Part shown: piece by piece, positions 4,435-16,957 of the stretch
Numbering within the stretch: position 1 is the first letter of the stretch
How the letters are laid out: each line of letters opens with the position of its first letter
DNA from: a virus
Strand: one strand, 5' to 3'
DNA length: 20,450 bases
Virus record (IMG/VR): IMGVR_UViG_3300048589_000133
Coordinates: 1 to 20,450 of that record
Notes under the pieces: model-generated
Told to the model about the DNA's origin: nothing
Database searches by the model: none
What the model saw: only the letters and a program-made list of their open reading frames with translations
Position numbers and translations under genes: made by a program

Positions 4435-5274
4435 TCAGCCCCCTAACAGATAAACAGCGGCGTTGTAAGCGTCCAGCGTGGTGCTTGACTGCGCACGCAT
4501 ATAGATGTTCGACCCCGCCGGAATGTCCCACTCCACGCCTGCGGTGAGCGGCGGATTGCCGACATACTCGCCCGAGTCGGTACAGAAGTTCGCGTCCTGA
4601 ATGATGATGTCGTAGTTCGATCCGTCACCAACGGCTACGTCTACGTGGATCGCCGCGAGATTCCAGCCCGTGTCTGCGGTGTTCACCTGAAACCCGAACT
4701 GCACCCACCACGTCCGAAGCGTTGTCGTACCAATCAGGGTCCACGCACCGTCTGACGTAGTGCCGGGTGTGATCGCTACCCCCGAATAGGTGCCGATGCC
4801 GAGTGTTTCGACAAACGATCCCTTGCGGATCATGGCCGCATTGGCTGGCATACCTAACGTGACACAGCCTACACGGATCGCAGTCGTAACCGAGCCGTAG
4901 GCTTTGGCGAAGATCGCAGACCCGGCAGGGATGAACAGCGGGAAGTAATACCAGCTCCCGCCACCGTTTCGCGTGTACGCCGCCGATCCGCCGCACATCA
5001 ACCCGGTGATCTTGTCCGTTGGACTCGTGCCACCTGACTCGTCAATGCCAATCGTAACCACCGTATTCCGCGAGCCTCCGCTCACGAAATTGGTGTTCAT
5101 GTTGATGAGGATGCCGTAAGCGTCCTGCGTCAAGTCAGAACCCAACTGCACCGCCGTCCCGTATGCTCCGGTCCCCGGCGTGACCGATGTACCGTTGGCA
5201 GTATTCGGGCGCGTCGTCCCCCACGATGGTGTCGTGAGGCAAAACGTGTTCGCGCCTGTAGGAACGTGAAGCAT
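4435..5274 (-). CDS. Putative virion structural protein
   Basis: 279 residues when started at ATG 5274, which shares one base with the upstream TAA (TAATG). An in-frame TTG at 5289 would add five residues but lies inside the previous gene. The sequence is rich in Gly, Thr, Ser and hydrophobic beta residues, with WWVQFGFQVNTADTGWNLAAIHVDVAVGD-like strands (about 185-215) and a C-terminal EWDIPAGSNIYMRAQ segment. This resembles phage tail or base proteins with jelly-roll or beta-sandwich folds. No catalytic motif is visible. Function is inferred from position in the structural operon. Confidence 0.68.
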   Translation of the reverse strand: MLHVPTGANTFCLTTPSWGTTRPNTANGTSVTPGTGAYGTAVQLGSDLTQDAYGILINMNTNFVSGGSRNTVVTIGIDESGGTSPTDKITGLMCGGSAAYTRNGGGSWYYFPLFIPAGSAIFAKAYGSVTTAIRVGCVTLGMPANAAMIRKGSFVETLGIGTYSGVAITPGTTSDGAWTLIGTTTLRTWWVQFGFQVNTADTGWNLAAIHVDVAVGDGSNYDIIIQDANFCTDSGEYVGNPPLTAGVEWDIPAGSNIYMRAQSSTTLDAYNAAVYLLGG

Positions 5275-5720
5275 TAAGCCCCATCCCAAGGAGTCGCGTT
5301 GCCGTCGCCCGTGACGTTCGCGGCGTTGATCTGCTCCACGTTGACATCAAGCAGGTCCGTGCCGAAGAACGAGTCGTAAACATTCGCCGGAACGATCATG
5401 AACTCGTGGAACACCGGCAGGTGAACGTCGTCGTCGTTGATGCACAACACCGCCCGCCCCACGTAGTTCGTCTGCGCTGCGGTCAGTTCCAGGTCGTAAT
5501 ACCCGGCCGCATCGCTGGTGATATGCACCATGTCGTTGTTGCCGCCAGATGCGGTCGGGGCCGCGTCGATGACGAGCGTGGGCACGCCACCGTCGTCCAC
5601 CACGAACGTCACGAGACAGCCTGTGACCGTCAAACTGAGTTCGGGGGTTTTCGCATCGGCAACATCGAGGAACGGCCCCACCGTCACCCGCGTTGCGGTG
5701 TTCTGCTTCAAGTACCTCAT
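5274..5720 (-). CDS. Phage structural protein, MRYLKQNTAT family
   Basis: 148 residues beginning MRYLKQNTATRVTVGPFLD. It continues with a beta-rich domain containing VVDDGGVPTLVIDA, an AAGYYDLELTA segment and a late EFMIVPANVYDSFFGTDLLDVNVEQI stretch. I recognise this layout from a common family of tailed-phage structural-module proteins, probably linked to tail appendages, without defined activity. ATG at 5720 overlaps the preceding TGA (ATGA, 5717-5720) and has GAGG upstream. The C-terminal VEQINAANVTGDG is typical of relatives that bridge to a fibre region. The enzymatic role, if any, is unknown. Confidence 0.72.
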   Translation of the reverse strand: MRYLKQNTATRVTVGPFLDVADAKTPELSLTVTGCLVTFVVDDGGVPTLVIDAAPTASGGNNDMVHITSDAAGYYDLELTAAQTNYVGRAVLCINDDDVHLPVFHEFMIVPANVYDSFFGTDLLDVNVEQINAANVTGDGNATPWDGA

Positions 5721-6406
5721 GCTGCCCTCATTCGATAATTAGCCATTGCTTGCGGGACGATGGACGCTGACCCGCCATACGGAACAAGAACCAGCACGCC
5801 CGCAGTGGAGTCTTGCGCCGCGCCCCACGTTGCCACGGTCTGAACGTCCCCGGTCGAAGCCGACGTGTAGTTACGGCGGGCGACGGTCGTGCCGTTGCCA
5901 GTATCAGCCGTGTCTGTAACCGCGCTGCCAAACGAGTTACTGAAGCTCGTCGGGGCCGTGGCGTTCCATTGCGAAGTCCCGGCGAATGCCAACGTTCCGG
6001 CGTCCACGCTCTGCGCCGAGCTTGGAATTGTGTTCGTGGTCGATGCGCTTGTCCCTGAATACCCGACGACCCCGGTTAGGTCTGCAAACGAACCCTCGAT
6101 GACGACCCCAACCGCGCCTCTATTCTCGTATTGCGATGTTAACGTGAGGTCGTAATAGGTCGGCTCAGAGCCACCGGCAACCCGAGCATGGCAGCGAATA
6201 TTCGCGTCTCCGGTCGCGGATACAAGCAACGTGAAGCCGCCACCGTCAACGGACTGTGTGGCGGCGTTATTGTTTCCGAAAAACAGAAGGATCAGATTCC
6301 CGCTTGCCGGAGCAGACGAGAAAGTTACCCGCACTCCGTAGCCGCCAGTCCCGCCGTAGGCACTAATGGAGCCTTCTACTGCTTCAACGATGTCGCCTTT
6401 TGCCAT
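5717..6406 (-). CDS. Putative virion protein, beta-rich
   Basis: 229 residues of Gly/Ser/Thr-rich beta sequence: GGYGVRVTFSSAPASGNLILLFFGN (about 21-45), then GGFTLLVSATGD, VIEGSFADLTGVVGYSGTSAS and a late VLVLVPYG strand. This pattern is common in phage and bacterial surface beta-sandwich proteins whose strands follow an APASGNLLV-like motif. It overlaps both neighbours by 1-4 bases, so it belongs to the same transcript. A role as a tail or capsid surface protein is an inference. I see no active-site signature. Confidence 0.65.
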   Translation of the reverse strand: MAKGDIVEAVEGSISAYGGTGGYGVRVTFSSAPASGNLILLFFGNNNAATQSVDGGGFTLLVSATGDANIRCHARVAGGSEPTYYDLTLTSQYENRGAVGVVIEGSFADLTGVVGYSGTSASTTNTIPSSAQSVDAGTLAFAGTSQWNATAPTSFSNSFGSAVTDTADTGNGTTVARRNYTSASTGDVQTVATWGAAQDSTAGVLVLVPYGGSASIVPQAMANYRMRAA

Positions 6407-7368: not shown

Positions 7369-7806
7369 TTACGAGACCGTCAGTCTCCAGACGCCACTGG
7401 CACCCGGTGTGACCGTCAGGGTGTTCCCATCGGTTACTACGAAGGTCGAGCCGTAGTCCAGATACCCGATCAGCGGATCGGCCACCGGGGAAGTCGGTGT
7501 GTCGTCGTAGATATAAATGTACCGGCCCGTGGCGAAGTCCGCGCTCGAAGCCGTCCACGAGAACGGGTTGCAATCGAATTCCCAAATGCCAGATCCCGCG
7601 CCCGTTTCCGTCCACGCATTACCGGTGATCGTCGCGGCGGCGTACCCGCCATCTGAGGCGATCTGCGTCAAACCAGCCAGCGTGGCGTCGGTAGCCTGGT
7701 TCGGGGCGGAGTTGGTAATGACCGCCTTGAACGTGTGGGAATCATTGTGGATCTGCGCCGTGCCGAGATATTCGGCAAGCTCATCGACAGGAACAAAAGT
7801 AGCCAT
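7369..7806 (-). CDS. Virion-associated protein with LHN/FKAVITN motif
   Basis: 145 residues. The N-terminal half contains IHNDSHTFKAVITNSAPN followed by DATLAGLTQIASDGGYAAATI, a pattern I recognise from widespread phage structural-module proteins (short beta-sandwich, often annotated as hypothetical or decoration-like). The C-terminal half is beta-rich with SWTASSADFATGRYIYIYDDT and ends in TVTPGASGVWRLTVS. ATG at 7806 has AGGAG seven bases upstream, one of the best ribosome-binding sites in the structural block. It starts two bases after the upstream stop. Exact place in the virion unknown. Confidence 0.72.
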   Translation of the reverse strand: MATFVPVDELAEYLGTAQIHNDSHTFKAVITNSAPNQATDATLAGLTQIASDGGYAAATITGNAWTETGAGSGIWEFDCNPFSWTASSADFATGRYIYIYDDTPTSPVADPLIGYLDYGSTFVVTDGNTLTVTPGASGVWRLTVS

Positions 7807-7808
7807 TG

Positions 7809-8018
7809 TTAGCTCCTAGCAGTTGAATTCATGTGCGCCTTGTAAACTTCGCGCTCTACTGCCGTAATCCGGTAGCTGAGGGCGCGGGCGCGGTTAGATA
7901 GCCGTTCGATTTCAAGGTTGATCGCTTCGCGCTCTTTCCGAAGCTCTACAGTGGCGGCGAGCGCCTTTCCTTGAGCGTCGGTTGGGCGGCGATCAGACGT
8001 AATGGAAAAGCCGGTCAA
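7809..8018 (-). CDS. Small coiled-coil protein downstream of portal
   Basis: 69 residues, starting with TTG that overlaps the portal TGA (TTGA, 8015-8018); GAGG lies about ten bases upstream. Residues 15-60 form a strongly charged helix (ELRKEREAINLEIERLSNRA) likely to be a coiled coil. No family is recognised. The tight overlap implies translational coupling with the portal, so a small head-completion or assembly factor is plausible, but this is inference only. Confidence 0.6.
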   Translation of the reverse strand: MTGFSITSDRRPTDAQGKALAATVELRKEREAINLEIERLSNRARALSYRITAVEREVYKAHMNSTARS

Positions 8019-12680: not shown

Positions 12681-14065
12681 ACAATGCCCCTAAGACCCCT
12701 CTTAAGAGGCTCTTTCCACTTATGGGAAACCCCGTTAATCATCAGGGCTTCATTTGCAGCAAAGGTCAGCATGAGAGAGTCTGCAAGGTCAGGGCTTCTC
12801 AATCCCCTCTTTCGCATCTCGTCCTTAGACTCTACTTGGGCCTTTCCGTTGGAGGAGAAGGTGTATCTAACGGAGCAGAGTTCGGAGATGAGATCGTCGT
12901 TCTTAGGAAGCTTGCAGTCTCGTTTTGCCAACCAGTCTTTACACCGATACCACAACTCCGCACGAAGGTTCCTATAGCTCCCCACTGCGGGTGATTCCGA
13001 TACGTTAACGCCCAGAACAGGCAACCCAAGTTCTCGGAGACGGTCAACCACGCCCGCGCCAAGGCCAATCGAATCCACGAGAATTTCCGTAGGTTTCGTA
13101 CTCGACCCTTCGTATTGGGCAACGACCGCTCCGCAGAGTTGCATCAGGTCCAGATTTCTCCAAACCTGTATCTCTGAGACTACATTTGCCTGTCGAACAG
13201 TTAACGCCGACCTGTCAGAACCAAATCTCGCTACGTCCAGCCCCCAAACTGTAGGCGCGTTGGGGTTTACCGAGACATCCCGATACGTAGCTGCTTCCGC
13301 AAGCTCACGAGAAATAATCGTATTGTCGTCAGTCGTCGGGAAATCGCCCAGAACACGGATACGATATTCGTTTGAGTCTTCGCCCGACTTGATCTTGACT
13401 TCTTCAATGAAGTCTTTAGAGACTCTCGGGGATTCAAAACTACTGACATGGTAGGTTTTCCAGTGGTCTTTGAGCCTGTTGTGGGTCTCAAAGAAAAATC
13501 CCGTCGTTCGGGTAGGGTTCCCGGTCAAAATCGTAGTCGCGTTCTCTCCGGACATGCTTCCGGACGCGGCGTTAAATACCGCCTCGTCAATACCCGAAGC
13601 CTCGTCAGCCAAGAGTAAGACGTTGGCCGAGTGGACACCTTGTAAAGCCTCCGGCGTGTCGGCCCTGGAGGTTCTAGCCGAAAGGAATACCTCGTCCGGC
13701 GCGGCCTTGAGGGCGATTCTGTCTGCTGTTACAACCAGAAGCGTCTTCAAGAAATCCGGAAGGTTGTTAATCCACGCCCTCGTTTCGGCAAAAAGCGCGT
13801 CGAACAACTGCGGGCTGGACGGGGCGGTCATTACCACCTTTGCCGGGTATCTGGTCAACAAAAACCAGATAGAGGCCCACGAAAGCACCGCTGACTTGCC
13901 GACGCCGTGCCCGCTGCGTATCGAAATCTTACGGATTCCGTTGGCTACGTCGGTTAGGACATCCGCCTGCCACTTGTCAGGCTCCAACTGGAGCATTTCT
14001 TTGACAAACCGGACTGGATCTTTTGAGTACCGGGAGACGAACTGATCGAACGGATTCTTAGACAT
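12677..14065 (-). CDS. terL: Terminase large subunit
   Basis: The packaging motor: an N-terminal ATPase pumps DNA through the portal and a C-terminal RNase H-like nuclease cuts concatemers. 462 residues. Walker A SGHGVGKS (51-58); Walker B VLLLADEA (149-156) with catalytic Glu155; coupling motif TGNPT (181-185). The nuclease acids are D277 in GLDVARFGSD, D331 in ILVDSIG and D426 in SPDLADSL. All key residues are present, so it should be active. ATG at 14065 overlaps the 3' end of the HNH gene by 8 bases. Downstream it is coupled to the GT25 gene. It is separated from the small subunit by the HNH gene, a small gene and a non-coding stretch with a tRNA. Confidence 0.95.
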   Translation of the reverse strand: MSKNPFDQFVSRYSKDPVRFVKEMLQLEPDKWQADVLTDVANGIRKISIRSGHGVGKSAVLSWASIWFLLTRYPAKVVMTAPSSPQLFDALFAETRAWINNLPDFLKTLLVVTADRIALKAAPDEVFLSARTSRADTPEALQGVHSANVLLLADEASGIDEAVFNAASGSMSGENATTILTGNPTRTTGFFFETHNRLKDHWKTYHVSSFESPRVSKDFIEEVKIKSGEDSNEYRIRVLGDFPTTDDNTIISRELAEAATYRDVSVNPNAPTVWGLDVARFGSDRSALTVRQANVVSEIQVWRNLDLMQLCGAVVAQYEGSSTKPTEILVDSIGLGAGVVDRLRELGLPVLGVNVSESPAVGSYRNLRAELWYRCKDWLAKRDCKLPKNDDLISELCSVRYTFSSNGKAQVESKDEMRKRGLRSPDLADSLMLTFAANEALMINGVSHKWKEPLKRGLRGIV

Positions 14066-14537
14066 GCTTCCAGACTTTGCCCGTCCGGATCATGCTGACC
14101 AGCGCAGGGTCGATCCCGTAGGTTTTGGCTAACGCCCGTCCGCGCTCCTTGGAGCATCGGATCGCCCGAGCTTGATCGTTGGTCAATCGTGAGATTGGGT
14201 GCTTCTCACCGTGAGAAACCGTCCCATGCCGAAGCATGTCCCTTGTATTCTCCTTCGGCGTGCCCCACACAAGATTCTGAAGCCGGTTGTCGCGGGCGTC
14301 CCCGTTAAGGTGCCTAGCTACCTGCCCAGCCTCCGAAGCGCCCCTAAAAGCCTCCAGAACGGCTCTGTGGACGGATACCTTCTGCCTCTGGCCGTCAACC
14401 GACAAACAGACTTGTCCGTGGCCGTACTTGCCGTGGTCAATGACCAGAATCTTGCCAGTACGGATGCTCTTGACTCGCCCGAGGTCCGAAATCTGATAGA
14501 TCCCCTCGTATCCGGGGATGTCCTGCCAGTTTTCCAT
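14058..14537 (-). CDS. NUMOD4/HNH homing-type endonuclease
   Basis: A probable free-standing homing endonuclease, cutting DNA so that its own gene spreads. With ATG at 14537 (GGAG four bases upstream) it has 159 residues; an in-frame TTG at 14564 is less likely. NUMOD4 motif at residues 4-26 (W-x-D-I-P-G-Y-E-G-I-Y-Q-I-S-D-L-G-R-V-K-S); HNH_3 core with H57, H76-x-N78-G-D80, N84 and N88-L, ending WGT (91-93); C-terminal helix-turn-helix (about 115-159) with LAKTYGIDPALVSMIRTG. Its 3' end overlaps the terminase start by 8 bases. It could serve the capsid-gene intron in trans, but no evidence shows its target. Confidence 0.85.
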   Translation of the reverse strand: MENWQDIPGYEGIYQISDLGRVKSIRTGKILVIDHGKYGHGQVCLSVDGQRQKVSVHRAVLEAFRGASEAGQVARHLNGDARDNRLQNLVWGTPKENTRDMLRHGTVSHGEKHPISRLTNDQARAIRCSKERGRALAKTYGIDPALVSMIRTGKVWKHV

Positions 14538-14678
14538 GCAACTCCAAAAAAAATCAGCAGACAACCGAACTCGCCCCTAAGTACAAGCCCAAGCCAAAAA
14601 TCTTACTTCCCGCAAGATAGATCACAAAAAGGACCAAAATGGTCACGAGAATGGCCAAAACAGGGCGGAAGTAGTAAA

Positions 14679-14897
14679 TCACCAGAAATACTCGTGAGGC
14701 TTCTTATGATCCGGCCATCTAATAGGCTCCAAACCCCTCTCTAAACCCTTTAGAAGCACCGTTTCCTCACGTCTGGAGGGCTTGGTGTGGTAAAGATCAT
14801 CGTGCCACCGGGGCCAACTGGAGAGCCACCTCCAATCCCAAGGGGCTAAACCCCTCTTTTGCTTGGCTCTTAATGAGTCCCGATGAGTTCTAGCCAT
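14679..14897 (-). CDS. Small basic protein ending in KPHEYFW
   Basis: 72 residues, rich in Arg, Lys and Trp: MARTHRDSLRAKQKRG, then LAPWDWRWLSSWPRW and a C-terminal WPDHKKPHEYFW. Short basic phage proteins with an aromatic KP-H-x-Y-x-W tail are something I recall from other tailed phages, function unknown. The start context is weak (AAAGG immediately next to the ATG), which is why confidence is moderate. It lies in the leader between the 65-bp hairpin and the HNH gene, on the same strand as the terminase genes. The 114 bases from 14565 to 14678 between the TTG start form of the HNH gene and this stop show A-rich sequence and nothing else recognisable. Confidence 0.5.
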   Translation of the reverse strand: MARTHRDSLRAKQKRGLAPWDWRWLSSWPRWHDDLYHTKPSRREETVLLKGLERGLEPIRWPDHKKPHEYFW

Positions 14898-14933
14898 CCT
14901 TTAAAACCACGCGGGACTCTTAAAGAATACGCG

Positions 14934-14998
14934 CTTACCTAGTAAACTATGTATTTCGACACGCTAAATGGGTCGAAATAGATACTTTACTAGGTAAG
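14934..14998. repeat. 65-bp hyphenated inverted repeat (27-bp arms)
   Basis: Arms 14934-14960 and 14972-14998 match in 25 of 27 positions; the loop is 11 bases, ACGCTAAATGG. Outer arm core is TTACCTAGTAAA against TTTACTAGGTAA. The two mismatches are C.C and G.G, placed at arm positions 14 and 18. It lies between the tRNA and the small basic gene. There is no T-run immediately after either arm, so it is not a standard terminator. Candidate roles are a packaging or recombination site, replication hairpin, or RNA leader structure. Confidence 0.9.
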
Positions 14999-15033
14999 TT
15001 TGGCCCTGTAAGAAAAAAATTGAGAGAGGGGAG

Positions 15034-15050
15034 GCGTGGACTGTGGTGGC
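15034..15050. repeat. 17-bp direct repeat, copy 1 (tRNA 3' end)
   Basis: GCGTGGACTGTGGTGGC. On the minus strand this is the last acceptor bases, the discriminator A, CCA and ten bases downstream of the tRNA. An identical copy lies 96 bases away on the other side of the tRNA. Confidence 0.95.
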
Positions 15051-15129: not shown

Positions 15130-15146
15130 GCGTGGACTGTGGTGGC
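15130..15146. repeat. 17-bp direct repeat, copy 2 (tRNA 3' stub)
   Basis: Identical to 15034-15050. On the minus strand it again reads GCCACCA followed by CAGTCCACGC and a pyrimidine and T-rich run, but the sequence upstream lacks a T arm, matching acceptor or anticodon arm. It is best read as the 3' stub of a lost or decayed second tRNA, or the scar of a recombination event. Confidence 0.9.
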
Positions 15147-15255: not shown

Positions 15256-15443
15256 CTTAGCACCAATCCCCTAGCTATTTAACGTAATAGCTATTATGCG
15301 TACCGCCATGATAATCAATGGGTTACGCTTTTACCTACCAGGGATTGTCGGACAATGGGGTATTTAGTGGGGAAAGTGTGTAGTGGATACTATACACTTA
15401 GATACGCACGCGCATATTACTGCGGTCGCGGCCATGACACGCT
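15256..15443. other. Non-coding stretch with dyads, after terS
   Basis: The gap between the small basic gene and terS is 547 bases (14898-15444) and holds the 65-bp hairpin, tRNA, 17-bp repeats and this part. Here I see a 12-bp perfect palindrome TAATAGCTATTA (15285-15296), ATTGTC-G-GACAAT (15344-15356) and a hairpin with 10-bp arms, one G.T pair, and loop GGAT (15375-15398). No ORF is supported. Position next to terS makes it a plausible packaging-start (cos or pac) region, which is inference. Confidence 0.4.
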
Positions 15444-16901: not shown

Positions 16902-16957
16902 CGATTGCAGAAAGGGTACTCCGGTATCCTTTCTGGAATCCACCCGGAGATAAGACA

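Follow-up and report, generated by a model that had tools for sequence, protein, structure and literature searches.

A 65-Nucleotide Hairpin between a tRNA Gene and the terL Segment of a Phage Terminase Cluster: A Possible RNA Processing and Stability Element

Introduction

Stem-loops of the type found in E. coli ompA and T4 gene 32 stabilise mRNAs from the 5′ end. Another group of long stems, namely those of the T7 early mRNA and of the E. coli 16S and 23S precursors, is the target of RNase III, and the RNase III sites of T7 carry an internal loop. The double-stranded minimum of an RNase III target is roughly 22 nt, and T7, T3, and lambda are listed as RNase III targets (PMC5371410). At the DNA level, phage pac sites are signals located in or near terS. 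The pac site of P22 is a 22-bp asymmetric sequence inside terS (PMC9611059), and intergenic pac regions exist as well (PMC11008901). Here, we describe a hairpin, H1, from the terminase cluster of a phage and compare it with these systems.

Results

The window, i.e., the whole stretch of DNA analysed, is a virus record of 20,450 bases and represents an incomplete genome. Its genes include those of an SU10-type portal and an SU10-type major capsid protein, terL, terS, and HNH endonucleases. All genes mapped near H1 are on the minus strand, where the order is an HNH gene, terS (15891-15445), a spacer with tRNA-Ile(GAT) (15117-15044), H1, ORF72 (14897-14679), a 42-aa ORF, a NUMOD4-HNH gene, and terL (14065-12677). 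The small terminase subunit is of the Sf6 type (Pfam PF20901, Sf6_terminase; phrog_1482), and the large subunit matches Pfam PF03237 and phrog_2. The tRNA gene, which encodes its CCA, was detected by ARAGORN and by Rfam RF00005 (63.3 bits). A preliminary description had placed H1 upstream of the terminase operon. It sits instead inside the terminase cluster, 46 nt 3′ of tRNA-Ile(GAU) and 36 nt 5′ of the ORF72 start, and the gap to terL is filled by the 72-aa ORF, the 42-aa ORF, and the NUMOD4-HNH endonuclease gene. ORF72, the first gene after H1, codes for a small conserved protein; as judged by comparison, it is a real gene, because homologues of the same length (72 aa) occur in two related contigs, L003 and L022.

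Several other features of this region were noted. The NUMOD4-HNH gene (14058-14564, between the 42-aa ORF and terL) is likely a mobile homing endonuclease; it is present in L022 and missing in L003, where the position equivalent to 14061 joins that of 14556. A 17-bp direct repeat, GCCACCACAGTCCACGC (minus-strand reading), flanks tRNA-Ile at 15034-15050 and 15130-15146. One copy includes the 3′ end of the tRNA with its CCA. In L003, the second copy is degenerate, and the repeat is possibly a trace of tRNA acquisition. The 13-mer AATCAATGGGTTA, at 15306-15320 in the terS-ORF72 spacer, has opposite orientations to terS in the window and in L022.

H1 is an inverted repeat of 65 nt (14934-14998), whose 27-nt arms (14934-14960 and 14972-14998) are complementary at 25 of 27 positions and enclose an 11-nt loop. 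The two mismatches in the stem are C.C and G.G, and G-U pairs are absent. No other short-loop inverted repeat of the window comes near it in strength: H1 has an ungapped score of 21, and 200 dinucleotide-shuffled versions of the entire window scored no higher than 13. The RNA fold of 14914-15018 had an energy of -39.5 kcal/mol (z -7.8), which was equalled in 0 of 200 shuffles. H1 by itself reached -30 to -32 kcal/mol as RNA, and folding as single-stranded DNA gave a z of -6.4. The GC content of the arms is 33% vs. 55% for the window, each arm holds the near-dyad TTACctaGTAA, and the 11-nt centre, ACGCTAAATGG, is asymmetric and not self-complementary. No second copy of an H1 arm was found elsewhere in the 20,450-base window. 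A T-run follows H1 on neither strand, the plus strand going on with TTTGGCCCTG and the minus strand with CGCGTATTCT. The near-perfect hairpin, the symmetric C.C and G.G mismatches, and the missing T-run had all been pointed out in the preliminary description and were reproduced here, the pairing being far beyond chance.

In the minus-strand transcript, H1 is a probable double-stranded RNA stem. With 27-nt arms and 25 pairs, the potential stem exceeds the length of at least about 22 nt associated with RNase III. Like the known RNase III stems, H1 is long, lacks a T-run, and lies between a cistron and the stable RNA or cistron that precedes it. It differs from them as it follows a phage tRNA and precedes a late (packaging) gene, and it is a candidate site; moreover, it has two 1x1 mismatches rather than the T7 internal loop. 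H1 resembles the leaders of the ompA and T4 gene 32 type in being a stem-loop close before a start codon (36 nt), although in this case a tRNA-bearing RNA probably precedes it. Unlike the phage pac sites, it is outside terS and is missing from relatives with a homologous terminase. In the Rfam scan, the tRNA alone passed the gathering score and H1 reached no family. The weak match of H1 to microRNA precursors (mir-4662 and others; 37 bits vs. a gathering score of 97) reflects a generic long imperfect hairpin shape; these families are eukaryotic, and no sequence kinship is claimed.

One IMG/VR contig, L003, shares the H1 arrangement. H1 is identical in the window and L003 at 65/65 positions and tRNA-Ile at 74/74, while the two differ by 7.2% elsewhere in the spacer, 18.6% in terS, and 23.3% in the adjacent HNH gene. 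At the spacer rate, the chance of zero changes is about 0.008 for H1 and about 0.004 for the tRNA. We regard the identity of H1 as moderate evidence of constraint, with the reservation that this background rate would be wrong if the block recombined. The block 14832-15012 is nearly identical overall, and its few differences are all in linkers, with 0 in H1 or the tRNA. The conserved block extends past H1 via the leader into codons 1-22 of ORF72. None of these 22 codons is changed, even synonymously, whereas 18 of the remaining 50 codons differ from L003 (P 4e-4). Both genomes are mosaic, the portal region being 91% and terL 82% identical. In L003, terL is flanked by two ORFs (5169-5870 and 7388-7855) with a nearly equal N-terminus (MSANLFPAKK...PQQVGLLSAA...); the window has neither ORF at these positions.

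Homologues of H1 were searched for with arm patterns in 2.9 million viral contigs and 84,980 species genomes. L003 was the sole true homologue among the viral contigs, and the species genomes gave no match. Five other pattern matches were rejected: L057 contains a T-run hairpin with 9-10 bases in common, which was read as a coincidence, and the remaining ones pair poorly outside the pattern. H1 was also absent from the loci retrieved via TerS, ORF72, TerL, and portal searches, including some 80 prophage loci that a TerL profile identified and other viral loci. L022 (TerS 66% aa identity, same gene order) and L023 (TerS 61% over half its length, TerL 68%) have neither the tRNA nor H1. The nearest annotated TerL is that of MW202879 (61% aa), and both the tRNA and an H1-like hairpin are absent in the stretch examined. 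N4-like roseophages match the tRNA only. As far as seen in these comparisons, H1 would be confined to one small clade, where it is found together with the tRNA. The pairing has no covariation signal, as the single homologue is identical and no variable one was found. Downstream of terS, at 15375-15398, the window has a further palindrome of 24 bp, which reads AGTGTATAGT-nnnn-ACTACACACT on the minus strand. Unlike H1, it also occurs in L022 and L023; the palindrome that these relatives retain downstream of terS is AGTGTATAGTnnnnACTACACACT.

The minus-strand RNA of 14820-15010 was predicted to fold into three consecutive hairpins, H1, H2, and H3, with an energy of -78.4 kcal/mol (z -6.1); H2 and H3 without H1 gave a z of -2.65. 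The 5′ arm of H2 (GAGTCCCG) is part of the leader (14898-14933) that connects H1 to the start codon. H2 (approximately 14872-14919) is predicted to consist of GAGUCCCG...CGGGACUC and inner pairs, with the start-codon loop AAAGGAUGG unpaired. The predicted probability that the ORF72 AUG is unpaired in this open loop was 0.95-1.0. H3 (AGGGG UUU AGCCCCU, approximately 14820-14871) is predicted within the first codons of ORF72, in the unchanged segment of codons 1-22. The conserved block and the modelled fold pattern fit a structured mRNA start region. The leader piece GCGTGGTTTTAAAGGA was found again before a different gene in L023 (2522-2557).

A second intergenic hairpin without a T-run was observed at 16903-16940, with 17-nt arms and a cUCCGg loop. 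Among the window, L003, and L022, its apical pairs have changed two-sidedly or via G-U and are still paired, save for one mismatch in L022, and the loop varies as UCCG/UUCG/UUAU. The hairpin stays beside the same upstream gene, and the following gene differs in L022. As this stem was kept through changes, intergenic RNA hairpins are selected in these genomes, a point in favour of the RNA reading of H1.

Near-perfect hairpins were enriched within 1.5 kb upstream of terL in TerL relatives (13 of 22 hairpins on 20% of the bases, P 8e-5). This set is a mixture: some members are T-run terminators, others are leader hairpins directly before the ribosome-binding site (L088, L113), and others again are AACGTT palindromes that occur in pairs within terS. 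Because the hairpin types are mixed, the enrichment was not taken as a sign of one shared packaging function. The AACGTT-centred palindromes were seen in seven prophage terS genes, mostly of Lachnospiraceae, as two copies in the coding sequence just past the HTH domain (L092 3243-3270, L093 2301-2327, L098 3328-3365, L099 3243-3270, L102 3459-3486, L116 2118-2145, and L151 3459-3486). The spacing of the pair is 21-22 bp, or 32 in L098, and the density of AACGTT upstream of terL is 4.6 times that elsewhere in these prophage loci. The flanks vary among the phages, together with the residues they encode, and yet stay palindromic (GTAACGTTAC, GCAACGTTGC, CGAACGTTCG). This suggests a DNA-binding site inside terS, perhaps pac.

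Discussion

We propose, with about even confidence, that H1 is an RNA element of the minus-strand terS-(tRNA-Ile)-ORF72-HNH-terL transcript and serves as a processing and stability point. According to this proposal, the 27-bp stem of H1 would part the tRNA from the first gene of the terL segment and would be cut by a dsRNA endonuclease, the likeliest being the host RNase III. The cut would free the tRNA precursor's 3′ trailer and give the ORF72-terL mRNA a 5′ end that is structured and protected; the start codon of this mRNA would lie in the loop of H2, the hairpin that follows. We infer that H1 and the tRNA belong to one RNA, that RNase III makes the cut, and that mRNA stability or translation is affected as a result.

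The preliminary description had suggested packaging, replication, recombination, or an RNA leader. The RNA leader is the best fit of these options, because the conserved block extends over the ORF72 start and codons 1-22 and is predicted to form a series of hairpins. An essential packaging role is disfavoured, since H1 is missing in L022 and L023. Several points speak against the RNA reading. H1 lacks covariation, its sole homologue being identical; arms that are low in GC and a stem free of G-U pairs would equally suit a DNA site; the stretch of 98-100% identity could be a recent recombination tract rather than a result of constraint; L022, with the same gene order, manages without H1; and the spacer showed no promoter-like site.

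The main rival of the RNA reading is a DNA-level site, i.e., a palindrome that either forms a cruciform or binds TerS, a regulator, or a replication protein of the phage, and that has a role in packaging, replication, or regulation. The Watson–Crick pairs, the base composition, and the near-dyad of each arm are all in its favour, as are the known intergenic pac regions and the position of H1 between terS and terL, a hairpin-rich place in relatives. However, most of the hairpins behind that enrichment are terminators or leader hairpins or are inside terS, and H1 is missing from L022 and L023 in spite of their homologous TerS and TerL, the shared palindrome being AGTGTATAGTnnnnACTACACACT. The constraint on codons 1-22 of ORF72 would also be left unexplained, and we consider a DNA-level site unlikely.

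It is also quite doubtful that H1 has little function of its own, having arisen as a local inverted duplication that only seems conserved via a recent block exchange between two phages. In favour of this view, just two members are known, both genomes are mosaic, and the block is nearly identical throughout. Nevertheless, the differences within the block are confined to the linkers. Long palindromes are generally unstable, and a useless one would be expected to decay.

A transcription terminator or attenuator is highly improbable: the stem is long and stable and lies within a spacer, but an intrinsic terminator combines a GC-rich stem with a following T-run, which H1 fails to provide within reach on either strand, and the terminator scan did not report it. 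The least probable explanation is a recombination or telomere site (attP, dif-like, or a protelomerase target) or a mobile palindromic element; the palindrome adjoins a tRNA gene flanked by a direct repeat, yet its centre is not self-complementary as in a protelomerase site, the pattern searches revealed 0 other copies, no flanking target duplication was seen, and neither protelomerase (PF16684) nor tyrosine integrase (PF00589) had a match in the window, L003, L022, L023, and L025, all of which are fragments.

Finally, H1 might be a control element that acts as DNA or as both DNA and RNA, is restricted to this phage clade, and was acquired with the tRNA, linking tRNA release to the switching-on of the packaging genes, for example through a phage protein acting on the palindrome or on the dsRNA stem. 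We find this improbable; H1 is interesting and yet probably an ordinary kind of element. If the RNA reading is right, H1 would be a simple example of how a phage with a tRNA gene in its packaging operon keeps the mRNA working via a strong RNA stem that sets the tRNA apart from the following message, and general understanding would be unchanged.
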